Source of the DNA: Aphanomyces cochlioides
Taxonomy: Eukaryota; Oomycota; Saprolegniomycetes; Saprolegniales; Verrucalvaceae
Direction: 5' to 3'
Length of the DNA stretch: 64,000 nucleotides
Assembly (NCBI GenBank): GCA_019828595.1
Contig: JAHQRK010000001.1
Span: 2,046,001-2,110,000 of the forward strand
The position numbers and the translations under genes are program-made. This document shows positions 17,367-39,689 of this stretch, piece by piece; the first letter of the stretch is position 1, and each line of letters opens with the position of its first letter. Below the pieces are notes generated by a model that ran no database searches, was not told where the DNA came from, and saw nothing but the letters and a program-made list of their open reading frames with translations.

Positions 17367-17679
17367 CTTCGTCCAGATAATGCGGTATTTTTAAATGTGT
17401 GTATCCGAACATGTACTTTTCTGGATTGCGACCGACAACTTGGCATCTCGGACTTCCAACTCTCTGACACTCCCCACGCATCTCCATGGTCTCTAGCTCG
17501 CTATGAGGCCTTCTCTAGCTCACGATCTACCTAGTCTTGGCCGTCGCATCGCTGTCCTTAGTCGCTCTTTCCTTGGTTTCTCTGTGGATGAAGAAAATAG
17601 TCTGGACAGAGTTACATGCGCTACAGCCACAGAATTGCCTCCCCAGTGGGTTCTAGATGGAGATGGAGGTGCCAAGGAG

Positions 17680-18579
17680 CTAGCCTTGGATGATTTTGTT
17701 GATGAAGTCAAGGAAGAAGTCCCAGAGTCGACTCGCGAGATCCATGTCTTGACCGAGGGCATTCGTCTCGCTCAGTTCAGCGATTGGGACGAAGTACTGG
17801 CCGTGCCAATTGTTCGTCACGATGTCTTCATGTGTGGCGACGTAGAGCTGCGTCTTGGCGCCATCTTCCGCGTTATAGAGGACAAATTTCGCCAGAAATC
17901 GAACGACCCAAGGGAAACCGTCAATCACGCCTGTGAAGACGCTTGCAGGATGGAGAGTATTCACGTAGACGTTCTGAATGCCACGAGCATGCAAGCGACA
18001 GCATAGTTCACGGGTAAACAAGACATTTGCAAGCTTCGACTGGCTGTATGCCGCCCACGCGTAATATCCATGCGGGTTGTTGATCTTGTCCCAGTCAAAG
18101 CCGTCTGCGGAAGCCCATACATGTGCCATGGAGCTCACATTGACAATTCAAGAAGGTGCTGAGGTCTCAAGGATCGGTAGAAGTCGCAATGTGAGCGCCA
18201 TGTGCGCAATGTGATTCGTTCCAAATTGCGATTCGATGCCGTCCATGGTGAGTGCAAACGGCACACCGGCGATTCCTGCATTGTTGACGAGAAGATGGAG
18301 AGGAAGACCGCGCGCCTTGTATGCGTCCGTGAAGGCTTGGACGGCCTTGAGACTTGCGAGATCAAGCTCCATGAACTCGACATTTGCATTCGGCGCTGTT
18401 TCTTGGATCGCTTTGATCACAGGCTCCGTCTTGGCCTTGGATCGACAAGCAAGGATGACATGGCAGTGTTTCTTGGCGAGTTCTCTGGCTGTAACGAGGC
18501 CAATGCCAGAGCTGGCGCCTGTGACGATGGCGACTTTGCCGTCAAGAGATGGGATGTCACTGAAGTCGAAGCGCATCAA
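17680..18579 (-). pseudogene. SDR copy 1, interrupted by a nonsense codon
   Basis: This copy aligns over its full length with the intact SDR at 19280-20179, including TGASSGIG and the YSQSK active-site motif. An in-frame TGA at 18148-18150 splits it after residue 143. The intact copy has CGA at that position, so one C-to-T change explains the break. The rest of the frame downstream (MSSMAHVWASADGFDWDKIN and on) is still open to the normal end, so the lesion looks recent. A re-initiated C-terminal fragment would lack the cofactor-binding half. Confidence 0.85.
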
Positions 18580-18639
18580 GTTTCAAAATGGAGTCGAGAT
18601 CTACTGAGAACACCCAAGAGTTGCCTTGATGACGGCAAA

Positions 18640-19150
18640 TGACTCCTCGAATCATCCGACGTCAGCAGCAACGTTTTCATTGGGAGAATGACCTTTGTTG
18701 ATGCAGGCGACTCAGAGAACAACGTGATCCTCTCCATAGGTGCAACCATGGAAGTCTTTGGGGTGTGAATCGAGCTGCTTCGATGTGCTCTATGTGCTCC
18801 AACTTGGGTTCGAAACCGAGTCATCCGCTGCAGGACGTTGCACCAAAGAAGTGACGAAATATCGAGACTTGTCTGCATTCCGTCACCATCCATCATCTAC
18901 TGGCATATCAGCTGAAATTTGCGACGGACATGCAGCCAAGACCGTGAAGCTGTCCTGTGGTGCGTTAGTCAATCGATGCCGAGAAGATCGACCACCGTGG
19001 GATTCCAACGATGAAAGGACTACCATTGTCAAGACCGAGGCAGCTTTGATACCTTTGTCTGAAGCAACGTGGACAGACTCGTACTCACCCTCGTACTGAA
19101 TGTCGCGGTCTTCTCTCAGATAGAAAGCGACTTCCCACCTCATCTATGAG
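18640..19150 (-). pseudogene. Remnant of a companion gene, unit 1
   Basis: Minus-strand coding-like stretches occur here (for example RWEVAFYLREDRDIQYEGEY at about 19080-19140). They are interrupted by stops and share recognisable nucleotide similarity with 39690-40400. The same companion gene therefore seems to have been duplicated with the SDR gene and then decayed. The family is not recognised. Confidence 0.45.
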
Positions 19151-19279
19151 AAGCCCTTCGTCTGCCCTCATTCGTAAATTGCCGAGACAAAGCCACCTCA
19201 ATGCTACTGGATGAGACTGTCTTTCCTCGAGTTACTGGAGTTTGGATGATCTACAGCCACAGGATTGCATCCCACAGGG

Positions 19280-20179
19280 CTAGTCTTGGATGGTCTTGTT
19301 GATGAAGTCAAGGGAGAAGTCCCAGAGACGACTCGCAAGGTCCATGTCTTGACCAAGGGCATGCGTCTCGCTCAGCTTCGCTATTGGGACGAAGTACTGG
19401 CCGTGCCAATTGTTCGTCACGATGTCTTGGTGCGTGGCGACGTAGAGCTGCGTCTTGGCACCGTCGTCTGCACTGGACAACACAAGTTTTGCGAGAAATC
19501 GAACGATGAAATTGTGTCCTTCAGCTATGCCTGTGTAGACACTTCCAGGATGGAGAGCATTCACGTAGACGTTCTGAATGCCACGAGCATGCAAGCAGCG
19601 GCTCAGCTCGCGGGTAAACAAGACATTTGCAAGCTTCGACCGACCGTATGCCGTCCACTTGGAATATGTATCCGGGTTGTTGATCTTGTCCCAGTCAAAG
19701 CCGTCTGCGGAAGCCCATGCATGTGCCATGGAGCTCACATTGACAATTCGAGACGGCGCTGAGGTCTCCAGGATCGGCAGAAGTCGCAATGTGAGCGCCA
19801 TGTGCGCAATGTGATTCGTTCCAAATTGCGATTCGATGCCGTCTTTGGTTAGTGCAAAGGGCACCATGGCAATACCAGCGTTGTTGACGAGAAGATGGAG
19901 AGGAAGATTGCGCGCCTTGTATGCGTCCGTGAAGGCTTGGACGGACTTGAGACTTGCGAGATCAAGCTCCATGAACTCGACATTTGCATTCGGCGCTGCT
20001 TCTTGGATCGCTTTGATCACAGGCTCCGTCTTGGTCTTGGATCGACAAGCAAGGATGACATGGCAGTGTTTCTTGGCGAGTTCTCTGGCTGTAACGAGGC
20101 CAATGCCAGAGCTGGCGCCTGTGACGATGGCGACTTTGCCGTCAAGAGATGGGATGTCACTGAAGTCGAAGCGCATCAA
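19280..20179 (-). CDS. Short-chain dehydrogenase/reductase, intact copy 2
   Basis: An intronless frame of 299 residues, the normal SDR length. Cofactor-binding TGASSGIG is at residues 20-27, CRSK after beta-2 suggests NADP(H) preference, NNAG is near 96, and the catalytic Ser (VNVSS) and YGRSK (Tyr-x-x-x-Lys, about 175) are all present. The order resembles retinol dehydrogenase/WWOX-like SDRs acting on lipid or retinoid-like carbonyls; the substrate is not deducible. It is the only undamaged member of three tandem copies. Its first about 280 bp are almost identical to those of copies 1 and 3, which suggests recent duplication or gene conversion. Confidence 0.9.
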   Translation of the reverse strand: MMRFDFSDIPSLDGKVAIVTGASSGIGLVTARELAKKHCHVILACRSKTKTEPVIKAIQEAAPNANVEFMELDLASLKSVQAFTDAYKARNLPLHLLVNNAGIAMVPFALTKDGIESQFGTNHIAHMALTLRLLPILETSAPSRIVNVSSMAHAWASADGFDWDKINNPDTYSKWTAYGRSKLANVLFTRELSRCLHARGIQNVYVNALHPGSVYTGIAEGHNFIVRFLAKLVLSSADDGAKTQLYVATHQDIVTNNWHGQYFVPIAKLSETHALGQDMDLASRLWDFSLDFINKTIQD

Positions 20180-20584
20180 GTTTCAAAATGGGGCTCTGCT
20201 GGCAAGTGCTGATTGACGACGTGCAGTGTTCAAGGGTGCAATGATCCATTGTCAACCTTTCCATTGGAACAGCATGGAATAAAGTTGCTCGACTGCAGTA
20301 CGTGCTCCAGTCATGGGTGCGCCCATGACCAGATATCTACCTTTGCCAGAATCGAGCGATATGCTGCCCACCTTCCCGTGCGTATGGTTTCAAATGTTGC
20401 TGCCACGCAGAAGTGTGAGGGCGATTGCCGCGATCTTCTCGACCTCATGAGGTTAAAAGATTCCATCGCGCCGTTATTGCGGATGTCATTCTCACTCGAT
20501 TAGACGACGCCGGCCATGCATTTTGGCTCGAATTCGAGTTACGATGAACAACAGCCACAGAATTGCATCCCGCAGAGCTATGAG
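20180..20584. other. Spacer between SDR copies 2 and 3
   Basis: No intact gene is seen. Short stretches resemble the 18640-18840 spacer, consistent with a duplicated unit of SDR plus flanking DNA. A 96-codon plus-strand frame (20213-20503) has no recognisable features. Confidence 0.45.
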
Positions 20585-21207
20585 CTAGTCTTGGATGATC
20601 TTGATGATGAACTCGAGGGAGAAATCCCACAATCGACTCGCGAGGTCCATGTCTTGACCGAGGGCATTCGTCTCGCTCAGCTTCGCTATTGGGACGAAGT
20701 ATCGACCGTGCCAATTGTTCGTGACGATGTCTTCATGTGTGGCGACGTAGAGCTGCGTCTTGGCACCATCGTCTGCGCTGTAGAACAAAAGTTTTGCCAG
20801 AAATCGAACGACGAAGTTGTATTCTTCAAGCAGGCCAGTGAAGACACCGCCGGGATGGAGAGCATTCACATGGACGTTTTGAATGCCACGAGCGAGTAAG
20901 CGACGGCTCAGCTCGCGGGCGAATAGCACGTTGCCAAGCTTTGATTGACCGTACGCCGTCCAGGCGGAATATCTGTTCGGGTTGTTAATCTTGTCCCAGT
21001 CAAAGCCGTCCGCCTTGGCCCATTTGTGCGACAAGGAGCTCACGGTCACGATCCGCGATGGCGCTGAAGTCTCAAGAATTGGCGAAAGTCGCAGCGTGAG
21101 TGCCATGTGCGCAATGTGGTTCGTTCCAAACTGCGATTCGATGCCGTCCTTGGTTAGTGCGAACGGCACACCGGCGATTCCTGCATTGTTGACGAGAAGA
21201 TGTAGAG
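20585..21207 (-). pseudogene. SDR copy 3, C-terminal part, cut by the Gypsy insertion
   Basis: This encodes the C-terminal two-thirds of the same SDR (from the NNAG region through YGQSK to the end). It stops being SDR-like at 21207, where the Gypsy 5' LTR begins. The missing N-terminal part lies on the far side of the element at 28106-28387. Apart from the insertion, the frame in this part is open. Confidence 0.9.
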
Positions 21208-31577: not shown

Positions 31578-31888
31578 ATGCGGGAATTCACGACTTTTAA
31601 TAAAACTATAAATAATTTAAAAAATATTCCCAAAATTTAAAAAAAAGTTTTTTCAAGATTCTTTTAGAGGATTATATTGTCTTTTTCACTGAAATTTGTA
31701 TTTTTGACTAAAAATTGAAATATTCTCAAATACTATTCAGGTATAGTGAGTTCAAGTGTAATATGAAAGTACATTCAAAAAATAAAGTAAAGTTTTGAAT
31801 GTGTGTTTTGCGTTTTTTTTTGTCAAGAAGGCAAATACTTGATTCTGATTGGCTATCGATTTCAAATTGATTTGGAAAAATAGATACA

Positions 31889-32111
31889 ACTGCTGCATCT
31901 ATGATAAAAACATGATCTTTTTGTATCAGAGTGTGATAGGAAATCTATCACAGTTGCCTGAAAAAACATTTTCAAAACAAGTTTTTGACTTGATTTCAGT
32001 ATACAGATCTGAAATGTGCAAAATTCTGAGCAACTGTGATAGAGATTCTATCACGGTTTTTCAACAAGCAAATATTGGCAGATATGAAGCTTCATTTAGT
32101 CGCCAGCATGA
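31889..32111 (+). repeat. Direct repeat A, left copy (about 223 bp)
   Basis: Nearly identical, in the same orientation, to 34660-34880. The two copies flank the mariner-like gene. Each contains two palindromes of the form GTGATAG-N-CTATCAC. Confidence 0.9.
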
Positions 32112-32553
32112 AGTCTAACCAAGAAACAAAGATGCTCTGAATAAATTTAACGTCTAGCACGGATATAAGCTAAGCTAGCTGCAGCAGAACACGACACTTG
32201 TTGACGTTTTTTGCGCTCACTCGCCTGATTGTACTGTTAACATATGCAAATGTCGAGCACAAAACACAAAGCATTGTGGATATCTTGAAAACTACTACTC
32301 TGGTCCGAAATGATGGCAAGGTTTGCCTTGCCATTGGCGGCATTTTTCTAAATATGTCTGTTCTTAACTTCTGATTGGTTCATTAAAAAACGCAAAATTT
32401 CTTCTTTGATTGGATAGTTTGAGCACTTTCCAACTCGTTTTTGTTCATGAGTTGTCGGACATCAAAGTCAACCACTCATTGCAAGCACATGCATAGTGAC
32501 AGGCCAACGACTCATTTTTGAACTTAACTGCCTTCTAACACTTTCGTCTTGCT

Positions 32554-33989
32554 GTGCCATATCTACTTATGCTAACCGAACCATCGCGCTTGAGCTCTCG
32601 GGGCCCAACGCGTCGACATGGCAAACGAAACCTCCAACACGACGAACGACTTGCCATCTACGAAACTCTTCTGGCTTGTAGTTCAGGGGGTGTTTTGCCA
32701 CATGGGATATTCACCACACTAGCGAGCAAGTACTCATGCCACTGGCAGACAATATCTCGCATCTGGGCTAGAGCTAGGCTCTCTTTACGTGAAGGCTCTC
32801 GGACCGCCGACATCAGCGCAAAAATTAAAGGTAAAACCTTCATAAAATTATATTTATGGAGAATTTATTAAAATATAAGGGTATCATTTTCTAAAGGTTT
32901 ACTGGAATAGGGAATTCTGGTCGAAAGAAGAAACGAACCACGGAGCAAATCACAGAAGCTGTCAAGTCCGTCGCACTCGAAGACCGGCAGACCACGCGGA
33001 CCATGGCAGAGCAATCCCACATTCCCAAGACCACGTTGATACGCTTCATGAAATAAGAACAAAGCCTGAAGGCTAAGTCAAGTCACACGAAGCCCTACTT
33101 GAGCGATGCCAACAAGATCCAGCGTATGAACCATGCTCTCTCCTTTCTTCGGCCTTCGTCTCGTTCGAACCACATCTTCAGCAGCATGTACAATGTTGTA
33201 CATGTTGACGAGAAGTGGTTCTACGTCACGAAGGTCAAGAAGAGGTTCTATGTGTTTGCAGACGAAGTCCTCCCAAAACGATGCGCGAAGTCCAAGCACT
33301 TTGTCACGAAAGTGATTCTCGCCGCTGTGTCCCGTCCCCATTATGGCCACCACAATGAATGCATGTTCGACGGCAAGCTTGGCGTGTGGCCTTTTGTCGA
33401 GAAGGTCGTTGCCAAGCGTGCAAGCAAAAATCGGTCGAAAGGAACGGTTTTGACACAGCCACAGACCGTGACGTCCGACGTCTACAAGAGCATGATATTG
33501 TCAAAAGTGATTCCTGCAATCCAAACTAAGATTCCAAGAGATGCGCTATCTAGAACAATCTTTTTACAACAAGACAACGCAAGCCCACATCGTCGTGTTA
33601 CAACGACATTTCTTGTCGAGAATGGAATTTCGGGCATTGAAACAACATCACAGCCTCCAAATAGCCCAGATTGTAATGTTCTAGATTTAGGATTTTTTAA
33701 CTCTATTCAAAGTCTGCAAAATAGTAAGCGTACTCGTACTATCGATGAGCTTATCGATGCTGTAGAAAGCTCATTCAATGAGCTGCCTTCCAGTACTCTT
33801 TCAAAAACTTTTATTACCTTGCAGAAGGTAATGGAAAAGGCGTTAGAGGCTAAGGGCGGTAATGATTTCCAACTGCCTCACATGAAGAAAGACGCTTCAA
33901 TCAAGGATTTGTCAACCTTTAATGTGATTTGCGATCCACTCACCCTTGAAAGCGCTCGAAGGCACCTTGATGGCGTCGAATCTCCTTGA
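32554..33989 (+). pseudogene. Mariner/IS630-Tc1-type transposase with one intron and one nonsense codon
   Basis: Exon 1 (32554-32830) encodes an HTH-like N-terminus with LASKYSCHWQTISRIWARAR. An 80-nt GT-AG intron (32831-32910) keeps frame into exon 2, which runs to 33989. The catalytic domain has HVDEKWFYVT (first Asp), LQQDNASPH (second Asp) and SPDCNVLDLGFF (third Asp), with about 36 residues between the last two, so a DDD rather than DDE triad. A TAA at 33054-33056 interrupts the linker between the DNA-binding and catalytic parts; everything after it is open. This suggests a recently inactivated element. Confidence 0.8.
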
Positions 33990-34659
33990 ATAAGAATCCA
34001 AAATATAAATGCAGTTTTTCATTATAATTTCCGCAAGGAATATTAGATTTCGAGGCTCAATACAAATTTTAGTATATTTCCACCGCGATCGCATACTTTA
34101 ATCAAGATAAATTACCTTGCAATCATTTTGGACCAGAGTAGTATACGAATACAGTCAATTAAGGCAAAAACAAAACTGTAGGAGTCATAAATAATGATGA
34201 CGGATGTGATCTCCACATCTTCGCCACAACTTCATAACCCTATAAACTTTTGACGTTGCCAAAGTCTAAAAGAAATCTCGCATCCCCCTCTACATGTTGA
34301 ACAGTAGGTAGTAGAGCAATAATCTATTGAATCAGCACCACGCACAATAAACACCCTCTACAAGGTACATGACTCATTCACTTAGATTGCAGCACATGAG
34401 TTCGATGTGTCAATATTTCTTTTGTATAGCCGGAGTGAGAAACGGCACAGAACAACGAGAGACAGAAAAGGAAAACTTTCGATTACAGTTAGCACGAAGG
34501 AGGACTAGGCATGATAGTACTGCTGGTATGTGCTTCTGGAATATCTTCTTGAGGTTCATGTTGTGTTTTCGTCAAGTCAATCCATTATATTAACGTCCAA
34601 TCATATTGCGTCATTCGGTGTGATAGGAATCATATCACAGTTGCAGTCATTATATACAT

Positions 34660-34880
34660 CTGCTGCATCTATGATAAAAACATGATCTTTTTGCATCAGA
34701 GTGTGATAGGAAATCTATCACAGTTGCCTGGAAAACATTTTCAAAACAAGTTTTTGACTTGATTTCAGTATACAGATCTAAAATGTGCAAAATTCTGAGC
34801 AACTGTGATAGAGATTCTATCACGGCTTTTCAACAAGCAAATATTGGCAGATATGAAGCTTCATTTAGTCGCCAGCATGA
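34660..34880 (+). repeat. Direct repeat A, right copy
   Basis: Matches 31889-32111 with a handful of changes. It ends exactly where the CRESS-virus-like sequence begins (34881). A further palindrome, TGTGATAGGAATCATATCACA, lies just before it at about 34619-34640. Confidence 0.9.
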
Positions 34881-34925
34881 CCAACTTTGCTCTACAACGT
34901 GTTGCTTAACCATAATACATTTTGC

Positions 34926-35099
34926 ATGGTATCCACCAGATCTCGCAGAGGACGTCCATTGCCAGCGCCTAGACTTCCAAATGCTCGCCGACCTTCTTAC
35001 TCTGATAATGACAATTGCCATCGTCATCGTTTGCCAGACCGAAAACCAAAGAGCGTACAAGTTACAACGAATCATAGAAGGAACCCTGTTAGAACTTAA
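34926..35099 (+). CDS. Small basic viral-unit protein, duplicated at 38379-38552
   Basis: 57 residues starting MVSTRSRRGRPLPAPRLPNA, rich in Arg, Pro and Asn. The identical frame is present in the second copy. It overlaps a hydrophobic frame, so which of the two is translated is unclear. A nucleic-acid-binding role would suit the charge but is inference. Confidence 0.35.
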   Translation: MVSTRSRRGRPLPAPRLPNARRPSYSDNDNCHRHRLPDRKPKSVQVTTNHRRNPVRT

Positions 35100-35287
35100 C
35101 TAACTATACTTCTTCAGTAGTCGCATCGTCCTCTTCTACTTCTTCGCTGGTCTCTTCCGTTTTTTTCAATCGTTCGAATCTGTTTGCGGGATAGCGCGCA
35201 ACTTACATAACACGCCATTCTTCTTGGCAATCGCTTGGAATCTCTTGTTTTGATTGTTGACATGAGAGAGCAGGCGCATAGCGTGGT

Positions 35288-35560
35288 TTAGACTGCTTCG
35301 AAGATGGTTGTTTTTCTTCTCCAATTGTTGTACTCCATACGCATGACATTGATGCGGCTCTCCAATCGAATCCGCTGTTGATTAAAATGGTCACCAAGAT
35401 TGAGACTCTCGGTCAAGACAGCAGTGTACTTACGACAGAGATCCTCATAAGCCGTACGAATACGGTTGTTCTCACATTCGAAGGCATGGCTCTCGCACAT
35501 CATGTATTCCCCGAGTGGACCAAGACTCTGGTCCCAGGCTGTACGTGATGGATGCGGCAT
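35288..35560 (-). CDS. Antisense coiled-coil frame of the viral unit, left copy
   Basis: 90 residues on the minus strand beginning MPHPSRTAWDQSLGPLGEYM, with an amphipathic helical C-terminal half. It is conserved intact in both copies of the redundancy, with one base change. It is transcribed towards rep's opposite side, as ambisense CRESS genomes often are. The function is unknown. Confidence 0.45.
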   Translation of the reverse strand: MPHPSRTAWDQSLGPLGEYMMCESHAFECENNRIRTAYEDLCRKYTAVLTESLNLGDHFNQQRIRLESRINVMRMEYNNWRRKTTIFEAV

Positions 35561-35656
35561 GTTTCGAAATATCTGCTTTTAGTAACAACTGTCAGTCCTA
35601 CATGGGTCTATCTATCATAGGGTTCCATAGACCAGATGTCTGTCACACACCTTGTA

Positions 35657-35744
35657 AACTTTATGGTTCGATATTATAAGGTTGTACGGTAAAGACTACG
35701 CTTATTCTTTGCCGTACAACCTTATAATATCGAACCATAAAGTT
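35657..35744. repeat. Large perfect-stem hairpin, candidate replication origin
   Basis: Two arms of about 39 nt are complementary except for one G-T pair and flank a loop of about 8-10 nt reading CTACGCTTAT. It sits about 30 bp upstream of rep, where CRESS genomes carry their nicking hairpin. The loop does not show the canonical NANTATTAC nonamer on either strand. In the second copy (39111-39163) only the left arm and loop survive; the insertion ends there. Confidence 0.75.
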
Positions 35745-35776
35745 ATAGAGAAGAAAGAATCCATGGATACTCACGT

Positions 35777-37046
35777 ATGACACAAAATGGACGATCGCAC
35801 CCGTTACCATTTCCAAAAATGACCCAACGAACACCAATTGAAGAACAACACGTGCCAACAATGGACATGGAAGAGAAGACCGCTACCGTGAAAGAGTTTG
35901 ATCGGCAATGGGACTGCCGTTTCAACATCAACTCGGAAGACTACCTGATGATGCTAGTTGCAGCAATTGAAGAGCACTACGCTGAAGGAAAAATCCGATA
36001 TGTACTTGTGAGCGGAATCGAAGTTGGGACAAAACCTCAACATACGGACTACCAAGTTGAACATGTGCACGTTGCACTCATCCTCCACGATCTTATGACT
36101 GCTATGGCCATCTTGAAGAAATGGGGAATCAATCTGTCTTTGGGTTATTATCTCAAACCAAGGAATCGCTCTTTGCCCTACAAGGGTTGGAGAGATCACC
36201 ATTTGAAAGAGTTTTCGAAGAAAGATCCGACTGCGTTAATGACATTGGAACGTGGAACTCTACCTGAAGATCTCAAGCGATCGGGAACGGCCCTCAGGAG
36301 CGAAGCAGAGAAGAGAATGAAGGTCGACGATGTTATTCGTGAAATGAGAACTTTGATCGAGGCTGGCAAGGAAGATGAAGCATTCAAGACGTACCCAAGA
36401 AACTTCCTTATGTATGGAGAAAAACTGAAGTCTATGGTGAACCAACGGAAGAAGACGTTCTTTGGAAAGCATATCGACCCTCACATTTGGCTGTTTGGAC
36501 AACCTGGTACTGGGAAAACCTCGATCCTCAAGTTTCTGTATCCTCACATTTTACAAGAAAGACCTTGCCAATCGATTTTGGGACTTATACAACGAGTCAC
36601 AATTTAGTCACGTTATTCTCGAAGACTTGGACAGTGTGGTTATTGACAAGCTCGGGGTACAATGGCTCAAGACAATCTGTGATGAAGCAGGCTTTGCTAT
36701 CGACCAAAAATACAAGACACCTCAATTGACACGAGCAACGAGTCTTGTATCGTCAAACCAAACGATTAACCAATTGATTGATGGTTTGGATGAAACCAAG
36801 TGCATCGAGGATACCAAGCGTGCCATTCGTCGACGTTTCTTTCAACTGCGTGTAGATGACCTCTATCGTATATTGGGCATCGCCTTGATTCCAGAGTATG
36901 AAAGGAAGCAATTGAAGCGTGCTGGCAACGAAGACTTCTCGAAGCTGTTTATGTCCTACAATTATGCGTTGGACTGCCCCACAGGAGAACCTCTAAAGGA
37001 ACCGGAGTCCTATCAGCAATTGATTCGAGATTTCTATTTCAAATAA
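35777..37046 (+). pseudogene. rep: CRESS-type replication-associated protein (Rep), frame-broken
   Basis: Two overlapping frames (35777-36607 and 36462-37046) make up one Rep of about 420 residues. The HUH endonuclease part shows a motif-1-like CRFNIN, the HUH motif VEHVHVAL and a motif-3 YYLKP with the nicking Tyr. The superfamily-3 helicase part shows Walker A GQPGTGKTS, Walker B HVILEDLD and motif C VSSNQ. The break is a one-base frame change between about 36545 and 36565, just after Walker A. Rep would nick the hairpin and start rolling-circle replication. As it stands, only the endonuclease and Walker A part would be made. Confidence 0.82.
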
Positions 37047-37068
37047 TGGAGTCATTTTTGTTTTTTCC

Positions 37069-37335
37069 ATGGTCTTCGTAGATAATGCATACGTCAGAGG
37101 AAGAGAACTCGAGCAACGCTTACGTCGAAACCATCAGTTGCGTGAAGCAGAGAGAAGACGTCCAGGTATGATCGGTACAGCCGTAATGCTAATGGAGATT
37201 GCGAATCGAAACGGTTACGACGTGCCATACATCCTTGGAGGATTAGCCACGGCAGGATACCAGTTACGAGTGGCGTCGCAAGCGTCATTTCACAAGTTGC
37301 TACGAGGTACGCATGTCAGCTTGGGTCGGTTCTGA
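37069..37335 (+). CDS. Small frame between rep and capsid
   Basis: 88 residues, Arg-rich at the start and with a Gly/Ala hydrophobic stretch (VPYILGGLATAGYQL). It overlaps the capsid frame by 23 bp in another register. It could be a separate product or the N-terminus of the capsid protein joined by frameshift or splicing. No family is recognised. Confidence 0.4.
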   Translation: MVFVDNAYVRGRELEQRLRRNHQLREAERRRPGMIGTAVMLMEIANRNGYDVPYILGGLATAGYQLRVASQASFHKLLRGTHVSLGRF

Positions 37336-38362
37336 AGTATGGCGAAGATCTCAGCAAACTCTCCAAGCCCGTCAGGCTGCACAACCTGTGGCAGCTCCAC
37401 CACAACGACTACGAGGAAGCCAAGGCACTCCAGGAAACCCCGCATCCGTCCCACCAGACGACGACGACGCTGGAACGAGTGAAGATGTGGACATGGCTTT
37501 GGGTGTATCCTTTGCGTCAGCTACAGGGAACGGACGAGTTGGAAGAACCGATGGCAGCGAGACATCAGTGGATCCTTTCAGTAGCGTCCGTCTACGTCCA
37601 TTTATGGATACCCAGAACTCTCAGCATCCTTTCTACATGACTGGATCGGTTACTCTCGACACCTCCACGGGTACTGGTGCCGTCAAGGAAGTTGGCTTTC
37701 GACTAAACTCCATATTCGACGTTCGCAATGACCCTGGCTACACAGCTGACCCCACTCCGGCTGCAGATGTTGCAGATGCTGCTGGCAGTATCGACCTTGT
37801 CATTATGCGCGATTTTTGGGCTTCCATCTACCGTTATTGGACTGTGGTTCATTCCAAACATCGTATTCGTGTATGGACTCAAAATACTGATGACCAAGAA
37901 GCAGATATTTGGAATTATCATCATGGTCAACAAGCTCCTCCCTTGGTCAGCTCTACCTCCAACTCAGTCATCTACTCGAAGTACCGACGTTTACACCGTC
38001 ATGCACACTACAAGACTCTTCAAGGACATGCCTCGACATCTACCGAAAAAGATCTATTCAAACGCGAAGTTGTCTTTGAAGGAGAGTACAGAATGGGCAA
38101 CGAAACAGTGGTGAACGATGTTTCAGAAGACGAATACAAGTAGACTTGGCACCGAATCAACGAAGTACCAAGCCTTTTCGAACGATGCTCAGTTATCTTT
38201 CAACGAAGCGAGCGTAGCGCCAAGCCCACAAATTTTGTACTCTATTGGGATGTTGAGATTGTGTATGACGTGCAATGGAAAGACCTTCTCAGCAAGTTTC
38301 AATACATGGAACCCGACGCAAGCTTCTCTGTGGCCAACTTTACTCTACAACGTGTTGCTTAA
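37313..38362 (+). pseudogene. Putative viral capsid protein with an internal stop
   Basis: 349 codons. The N-terminus is Gln/Arg/Pro-rich and then acidic (PDDDDAGTSEDVDMAL). It is followed by a beta-rich-looking core with alternating hydrophobic strands (PFYMTGSVTLDTSTGTGAVK, DLVIMRDFWASIYRYW, HKIRVW-type strand). A TAG at 38141-38143 interrupts the frame, which stays open after it to TAA at 38360. The capsid call rests on position downstream of rep, size and strand-rich pattern, not on a recognised motif. The left viral copy starts within its final codons. Confidence 0.6.
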
Positions 38363-39163
38363 CCATAATACATTTTGCATGGTATCCACCAGATCTCGCA
38401 GAGGACGTCCATTGCCAGCGCCTAGACTTCCAAATGCTCGCCGACCTTCTTACTCTGATAATGACAATTGCCATCGTCATCGTTTGCCAGACCGAAAACC
38501 AAAGAGCGTACAAGTTACAACGAATCGTAGAAGGAACCCTGTTAGAACTTAACTAACTATACTTCTTCAGTAGTCGCATCGTCCTCTTCTACTTCTTCGC
38601 TGGTCTCTTCCGTTTTTTTCAATCGTTCGAATCTGTTTGCGGGATAGCGCGCAACTTACATAACACGCCATTCTTCTTGGCAATCGCTTGGAATCTCTTG
38701 TTTTGATTGTTGACATGAGAGAGCAGGCGCATAGCGTGGTTTAGACTGCTTCGAAGATGGTTGTTTTTCTTCTCCAATTGTTGTACTCCATACGCATGAC
38801 ATTGATGCGGCTCTCCAATCGAATCCGCTGTTGATTAAAATGGTCACCAAGATTGAGACTCTCGGTCAAGACAGCAGTGTACTTACGACAGAGATCCTCA
38901 TAAGCCGTACGAATACGGTTGTTCTCACATTCGAAGGCATAGCTCTCGCACATCATGTATTCCCCGAGTGGACCAAGACTCTGGTCCCAGGCTGTACGTG
39001 ATGGATGCGGCATGTTTCGAAATATCTGCTTTTAGTAACAACTGTCAGTCCTACATGGGTCTATCTATCATAGGGTTCCATAGACCAGATGTCTGTCACA
39101 CACCTTGTAAACTTTATGGTTCGATATTATAAGGTTGTACGGTAAAGAATACGCTTATTCTTT
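38334..39163 (+). repeat. Terminal redundancy of the viral unit, right copy
   Basis: Repeats 34881-35710 and ends inside the hairpin, three bases after the loop's flanking CTTATTC. It carries second copies of the basic frame (38379-38552) and the antisense coiled-coil frame. Confidence 0.92.
38741..39013 (-). CDS. Antisense coiled-coil frame of the viral unit, right copy
   Basis: 90 residues, identical to the 35288-35560 copy except for one residue (His to Tyr near position 25). Function unknown. Confidence 0.45.
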   Translation of the reverse strand: MPHPSRTAWDQSLGPLGEYMMCESYAFECENNRIRTAYEDLCRKYTAVLTESLNLGDHFNQQRIRLESRINVMRMEYNNWRRKTTIFEAV

Positions 39164-39680
39164 TTATCGCTGGTATTAATATATGGTGGTAGTGGTAACA
39201 GATGGTAGCTGAATGAGCTCATCCTGAGCTTGGATAAAAAAACGACCTAGAAAACCCTCACTTCCCATACGATTCAAAGCTTGATATTTTAGGACAAGGT
39301 ACTTAGGAACACTTCATGAGGATATCAGTCGAGAAACATCAACTTTTGTCATGTCTTCTTTGGTTTTTTCAACGTCAAAGTCGGAGTTTTTAGAAGCTTC
39401 TTTTAACTTTACATTAAAAAACCCACATTCAAACCATTTCAATCCTGGATTTCATTGTTCTCAACTGTAGACTGTACTTATAGCTGTAAGTTTCAACGAA
39501 AAGCAATCGCAAGTGGAAACGTCTTTGTTAGTTTTTTAAGCGACAATTCAGACATTTTGGAACTTAAAGAAACTTTTGTAAATGTTGTATACACCAACAA
39601 TCATGTAATTTAAAAAAGTTTTGAGCAATATTTTTTTTAAAATAATGGCGTATTTTTTTTAAATTGTTGATTTCCCGCAT
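39164..39680. other. Non-coding AT-rich right flank of the island
   Basis: Poly-A/T runs and no open frame. It ends in the right-hand terminal inverted repeat (TTTCCCGCAT at 39671-39680). Confidence 0.5.
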
Positions 39681-39689
39681 CTCCCAGCA

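Follow-up and report, generated by a model that had tools for sequence, protein, structure and literature searches.

The 64,000-nt window analysed here (bases 2046001-2110000 of contig C1 in the 76.2-Mb, 94-contig assembly of Aphanomyces cochlioides, an oomycete that causes root rot of sugar beet) contains an element that we interpret, with a probability of roughly three in four, as an endogenous copy of a virus of the Oomyviridae type, whose linear genome with hairpin ends would have been joined head to tail with another unit and then end-joined into the host chromosome. The copy is real, well preserved and unusually complete for an endogenous oomyvirus, and its value lies in its ends and two small open reading frames (ORFs) rather than in a new lineage. 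Through it the virus family is linked to the chromosome of a named oomycete, with the two main genes, the extra ORFs and the genome ends preserved.

The element is bounded by two direct repeats (34881-35710 and 38334-39163, + strand), each 830 nt long, which align without gaps at a spacing of 3453 nt and are mismatched at four positions (34889, 35074, 35488 and 35696), in line with the original prediction. Between them, on the + strand, lie a large hairpin, a Rep gene spread over two frames and a downstream capsid gene with an in-frame stop; all three had been predicted, together with one break in each gene, and all were recovered from the ORFs, the motifs and the palindrome. The left repeat is a partial first viral unit that comprises the last codons of the capsid gene, a small ORF (p57), an antisense ORF and the inner part of a terminal repeat. 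The right repeat lies inside a complete second unit, and the whole element amounts to about 1.24 viral units in head-to-tail order. The repeats are far beyond chance, one longer self-match being listed in the window (922 nt, 90.6%, at 17.7-20.2 kb). The predicted extent, 34881 to 39163, is exact on the left, where a match to a host satellite ends at 34880/34881, but too short on the right, where viral sequence continues past 39163 to about 39238 and a dispersed repeat begins. The recent integration that had been proposed depends on the near-identity of the repeats (4 differences in 830) and is weakened as a claim: the corresponding age of about 0.24-2.4 million years depends on an assumed, uncalibrated rate of 1e-8 to 1e-9 substitutions/site/year, and the differences may be older than the integration or may have been erased via gene conversion. 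Because of the frame break in Rep and the stop in the capsid gene, the copy is probably inert, as judged from its sequence.

The first piece of the Rep gene (35777-36607, +) carries an HUH-type motif (HVHV) and a Walker A motif (GQPGTGKT), and the second piece, in another frame (36462-37046, +), carries the rest of a superfamily-3 (SF3)-type helicase, assigned from the family profile and from matches to the motifs ILEDLD, LVSSN and RRRF. Of 630 candidates in a search with the first piece, 95 proteins scored E ≤ 1e-3. Twelve of them have names that tell the organism, and these came from parvovirus-like hybrid viruses (three) or from oomycetes (three from A. cochlioides, five from Aphanomyces euteiches and one from Pythium insidiosum). 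The database Reps of this family from the three oomycetes are named hypothetical or are unnamed; one of the A. cochlioides proteins, AC1031_000690, matches 83% of the Rep piece at 100% identity. Among the homologues of at least 350 amino acids (n = 86), the HUH pattern was present in 82, Walker A in 84 and a Walker-B-like motif in 81. The Parvo_NS1 model scored above its cut-off, over the helicase part only, in P0020, P0015, P0075 and a free relative described below (L056), and under the cut-off in P0089; in the Pfam scan it was absent from P0005 and from the Rep pieces of the window. A profile of 19 of the 95 Reps, which places the ATPase part alone, had among its next matches after the best one chain 7lar ("ATP-dependent helicase Rep", 3.6e-5), Rep40 (2.9e-4) and an NS1 (7e-4); we take 7lar to be from porcine circovirus and Rep40 from adeno-associated virus (AAV). 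The search of PHROGs gave weak matches alone, mostly of the ATPase type.

We reconstructed a tree of all 95 matches with a quick method, in which branches have support from the Shimodaira-Hasegawa-like approximate likelihood ratio test (SH-aLRT) alone and the window is represented by the database model P0001, which omits part of the broken gene. By both the search and this tree, the window Rep falls within the Rep family of the parvovirus-like hybrid viruses. It belongs to a clade of nine rows (support 97), seven from oomycetes and two environmental, that includes a second A. cochlioides copy on contig C5 and five A. euteiches proteins. The copy on contig C56 pairs with the environmental sequence P0007 (support 96), the P. 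insidiosum protein pairs with the hybrid virus UC4 (support 87), and the named hybrid virus Reps P0075, P0083 and P0089 are placed elsewhere than the window copy. When the nine oomycete rows of the tree were treated as one label, at least four changes were required, and therefore the oomycete copies were likely acquired several separate times within this one Rep family.

The parvovirus-like hybrid viruses are housed in Oomyviridae (Lineavirales, Arfiviricetes, Cressdnaviricota; three genera). According to the available text of PMC12451638, this family was ratified in 2025 by the International Committee on Taxonomy of Viruses (ICTV), its members have linear single-stranded DNA (ssDNA) and likely Stramenopile hosts, and parvovirus labels for such viruses are a misclassification. 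The element in A. cochlioides matches the Stramenopile host that ICTV calls likely. Since ICTV puts the family in Cressdnaviricota, and since Rep and capsid are both homologous to those of the hybrid viruses, the prediction of a virus related to the circular Rep-encoding ssDNA (CRESS) viruses in an oomycete was sound. Its further expectation, that such a copy would bring to light a lineage of viruses that infect water moulds, has been overtaken: the hybrid viruses are the Oomyviridae, named in 2025 with Stramenopiles proposed as hosts, and oomycete Reps of the family were already in databases, so the lineage is not new. The available parts of earlier reports note that both diatoms and oomycetes had been proposed as hosts (PMC4279886) and record the family from bird cloacal swabs (PMC9896142) and contaminated silica columns (PMC4279886). 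The Rep-like sequence in Phytophthora mitochondria, as far as the accessible part of that report describes it, is of another kind (PMC3198968), and the examined text of an A. cochlioides transcriptome paper, which cites a published reference genome (UMN_Aphcoc_1.0), makes no mention of this virus (PMC11653986). The window copy shares with Oomyviridae and the hybrid virus NIH-CQV the homology of Rep and capsid, the order of Rep then capsid on one strand, a unit of about 3.5 kb, an oomycete host and terminal palindromes, and differs in being integrated, broken and head-to-tail; it also carries p57 and the antisense ORF.

The capsid gene (37313-38143, +) was identified from its ORF and homologues; the piece stops after EDEYK, where the homologues go on for about 70 amino acids. 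This stop is a substitution and is less likely than the Rep frame break to be a base-calling error. A search with the piece found 15 proteins, itself included, of 800 candidates. By precomputed annotation three of the 15 have the phospholipase-A2-like domain PF08398, which was found again in both of those that we rescanned (P0104 and P0110). A model of the capsid homologue P0097 was predicted to have eight strands and three helices (mean predicted local distance difference test score, pLDDT, 63.9; 119 of 345 residues below 50). Ahead of the capsid ORF, in another frame, an 88-amino-acid ORF (37069-37335, +) resembles the N-terminus of P0098 by eye and is possibly an N-terminal extension of the capsid protein, in which case there may be a second gene break.

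The free relative, L056 (JAKKUQ010000096.1), is a contig of 3952 bases in a bacterial metagenome-assembled genome (MAG). Its Rep is 52% identical to P0003 in the best segment, and besides an antisense ORF and an ORF resembling p57 it has a capsid gene whose product contains a phospholipase-A2-like domain. An identical perfect palindrome of 186 nt stands at each end of the contig, as a linear hairpin-ended genome might leave it. L056 was the single relative among 51 pattern matches in one scan of prokaryote genomes; scans of viral contigs for free relatives found none among the pattern matches from P0003 (19), the A1 alignment (41) and the capsid P0097 (8), and a scan of a phage collection with P0075 found no relatives. 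The MAG is filed under Thermosediminibacteraceae, though L056 is like viruses of eukaryotes, and the contig is most likely a misbinned contaminant.

The A. cochlioides genome holds at least seven loci of this group (the window, C5, the inverted pair on C56 counted as one, C34, C19, C1 at 4.154 Mb, and C3), and the form of the viral genome was deduced by comparing the ends of these copies. Terminal sequences, each read outward, were found at the capsid-side end of the copies in the window, C34 and C19 and at the Rep-side end of those on C5 and C56. The right terminal repeat of the window (39110-39238, +), recognised by its match to the Rep end of C5, ends about 4 nt past the apex loop (by eye). 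Its outer stretch (39164-39240) aligned with the outward Rep end of C5 with a score of 51 (shuffled maximum 27; 0 of 500 letter shuffles as high), whereas the reverse-strand control scored 18, which 46 of 200 shuffles reached. The right ends of C34 and C19 matched the left end of C56 with scores of 142 and 99, respectively (shuffled maximum 29 and 0 of 200 plain letter shuffles in either case). A terminal sequence thus recurs at opposite ends of related copies, indicating that one sequence is present at both ends in inverted orientation. At the junction between the two units of the window, the palindrome scan and folding identified a palindrome of 88 nt (35657-35744; 42-nt arms, 95% complementary, 4-nt loop; -40.2 kcal/mol for a 120-nt stretch with DNA parameters). 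Compared with the longer terminal repeats, it looks like a shortened repeat-to-repeat, head-to-tail joint: each side holds the inner 42 nt of the repeat but not the outer 75 nt that are present at 39164-39238, and the change-over lies, by eye, at TATTCTTT. The terminal ends of the window, C34, C19 and C5 stop a few to about 20 nt beyond the apex (by eye). The hexamer GAGCTC occurs in the terminal stretches of the window, C34, C5, C56 and L056 (0.03 expected per 130 nt) and is absent from window positions 34881-39163 and from C56 10650-13682. Read outward, the apex loop is TGAGCTT in the window and AAGCTCA in C34, that is, in opposite orientations, and these two sequences, one example each, hint at hairpin transfer. 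Taken together, the ends of the five copies and of L056 suggest a viral genome of linear ssDNA, bounded by inverted terminal repeats able to form hairpins.

Integrated and circularised forms of AAV resemble the window copy in several ways: their terminal repeats are shortened at head-to-tail joints, their ends are hairpins and their apex loop occurs in two orientations. The window Rep differs in being nearest to the hybrid virus Reps. Endogenous elements of circular CRESS viruses likewise share the HUH-type motif and the SF3-type helicase and need no integrase, whereas the terminal repeats of the window point to a linear genome.

The events could then have been as follows. The viral genome would have been linear ssDNA, about 3.6 kb long, with inverted terminal repeats that form hairpins; Rep probably nicks and unwinds these hairpin ends in hairpin-transfer replication. 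Inside an infected host cell, the right end of one genome would have been joined to the left end of a second or, through a circularised intermediate, to its own left end, at TATTCTTT, the 8-nt word common to both repeats, at a cost of the outer 75 nt or so, or more, of each repeat. The joined molecule may have broken in the last codons of the capsid gene of the first unit, after which its left end would have been end-joined into a satellite array with no visible microhomology and its right hairpin end placed beside the present dispersed repeat. We also propose, tentatively, that oomyviruses in general, despite their CRESS-type Rep, use parvovirus-like hairpin transfer, form head-to-tail joints by recombination between terminal repeats, carry the p57 and antisense genes and gather preferentially at oomycete chromosome ends. 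The preserved ends offer information on the way in which a Rep of CRESS type might replicate a linear genome, and this bears on how circular CRESS viruses and hairpin-ended parvoviruses are related.

A number of observations weigh against the interpretation as a linear oomyvirus. With regard to the genes, the Pfam scan found no Rep endonuclease domain in the first Rep piece, just ATPase models under the cut-off, and nothing in the second; replication factor C ATPases top the profile matches of the Rep family (2.2e-5); the capsid pieces of the window and P0097 lack PF08398 in the Pfam scan, the capsid pieces of the window show no domain of any kind in it, and the profile search found no solved capsid; and the predicted capsid model is of low confidence. 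With regard to the ends, the match between the distal terminus of the window copy and C56 is weak (13 of 500 shuffles reached its score), the C19 end lacks GAGCTC near the apex (by eye), L056 has one GAGCTC in its interior, and the left edge of the window copy and the outer ends of C56 lie outside terminal repeats. The case for linearity, moreover, comes from comparing copies of different strains, the window and C5 being 74% identical in DNA; a circle carrying a single large palindrome would likewise leave an identical arm on either side of each unit, and an assembled contig such as L056 can look the same for a circle and for a hairpin-ended line. Finally, errors of assembly or base calling could account for the 830-nt repeat or for the frame break in Rep.

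The original prediction had in fact seen a circular CRESS virus, of which a rolling-circle product of slightly more than one unit was integrated, and the 88-nt hairpin would then be the replication origin. The excess over one unit stands, and the head-to-tail order, the one complete palindrome at the unit junction and the CRESS-type motifs of Rep all suit a circle, which is weakened by the recurrence of 39110-39238 at the Rep end of C5: the right end runs 75 nt past the hairpin into sequence that lies outward of the C5 Rep end, and no second unit was found beside C5. Oomyviridae are, in addition, described as linear in the available text of PMC12451638, and we regard a circular genome as unlikely. 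Integration of a single unit followed by a host duplication through unequal exchange would draw on surroundings that do rearrange, namely satellite and subtelomeric sequence, including the inverted and repeated pieces on C56. The joint, however, connects the viral right end to the left end inside the terminal repeat, an unexpected choice for a host event, and this origin seems quite improbable.

An assembly artefact, in which the 830-nt end of a single unit was falsely doubled, would explain why the repeats are nearly identical. Four substitutions nevertheless separate them, their edges differ (satellite on the left, dispersed repeat on the right) and both flanks have other copies, making such an error very improbable. 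The long direct repeats are also reminiscent of the long terminal repeats (LTRs) of an LTR element, and a Helitron or a plasmid with a Rep might be considered as well. Against any such non-viral mobile element, Rep and a parvovirus-related capsid gene lie side by side, as they do in the 3952-base L056, and no reverse transcriptase or integrase was found among the pieces scanned; we find this origin scarcely credible.

The ORF p57, which encodes 57 amino acids and is basic, is present in both repeats (34926-35099 and 38379-38552, +, stop included) as the end of the ORFs 34887-35099 and 38118-38552. It follows the capsid gene and is open in all five copies read (both window repeats, C56, C19 and C34). 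The proportion of nonsynonymous differences (pN, 0.056-0.273) was lower than that of synonymous differences (pS, 0.242-0.662) in all nine comparisons other than window versus window, these comparisons sharing branches; the two p57 copies of the window differ by one nonsynonymous change. A C-terminal motif of p57 recurs in L056 with scores of 75-100 (shuffled maximum 51-59; none of 1000 shuffles as high, for any of the four copies compared), and p57 of C19 matched L056 with a BLASTP E value of 7e-8 (a single comparison). In the window, C34 and C19, the stretch that separates p57 from the terminal repeat holds the antisense ORF (ORF3), whose counterparts in the latter two lie beside the capsid genes. 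In both window repeats this ORF occupies two frames, an N-terminal piece (35288-35560 and 38741-39013, -) and a C-terminal part in another frame (matches at 35181-35309 and 38634-38762); the C34 and C19 versions likewise contain interruptions. For the C-terminal part, C34 versus C19 gave pN 0.19 and pS 0.79. A 100-amino-acid antisense piece of C19 was used as a query in a search limited to relatives of similar length with exact words in common; of four candidates two were hits, and both belong to this genome. No homology was found between this antisense ORF and that of L056 (417 of 1000 shuffles scored as high). In these comparisons p57 and the antisense ORF look conserved. We found no literature on either ORF in searches by virus and host names, rather than by gene terms, and make no claim of a first report.

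Four of the seven loci (C56, C34, C19 and C3) are found no more than 14 kb from a contig end with telomere repeats, which has a chance of 4.6e-5 under uniform placement with a cut-off that was set after seeing the data; the copy in the window lies outside the subtelomeres. Exchange between subtelomeres may have relocated copies. On C56, near the telomere, a 9-kb near-palindrome (C56:6050-15024, 99.3%) contains two head-to-head viral copies. We considered these as a rolling-hairpin dimer and rejected it: the palindrome extends into host subtelomeric repeats on both sides, so that a host rearrangement suffices. A further viral remnant on C56, at about 3604, adjoins a short CCCCCAAA tract. The telomere repeat itself is of 8 bases, (CCCCCAAA)n / (TTTGGGGG)n, and was found at seven of the 11 contig ends examined (the starts of C56, C34, C3, C1, C5 and C67, and the end of C19). 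It differs from the TTTAGGG type known from other oomycetes.

At the insertion site, the left flank (34142-34880, +) is part of a tandem satellite of about 921 bp, 95% identical to tandem units on C67, which is cut off at 34880; an uncut copy at 31881-32298 continues with satellite sequence, and there is no visible microhomology at the junction. On the right the virus adjoins a dispersed repeat of about 448 bp (39239-39686, +), a host mobile element with at least 48 matches listed in the genome, its own place and short pieces counted. An empty site was not found, in that the satellite of the left flank does not resume at the right flank, and DNA must therefore have been lost or rearranged there. 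The satellite (window 31881-34880; C67:2036725-2039489) contains short palindromes, GTGATAG...CTATCAC, and the far end of contig C56 lies inside what looks by eye like the same satellite. Beside the virus, at 33099-33989, stands an ORF for a DDE-type transposase (Pfam DDE_3, E 9.8e-5, under the curated cut-off), and a look-alike (L026:892-1686, -) was noticed by eye upstream of the C19 copy. Elsewhere in the window, 17672-21207 holds long imperfect repeats of 600-920 nt with 82-91% identity, with more pieces of 95% near 28 kb.

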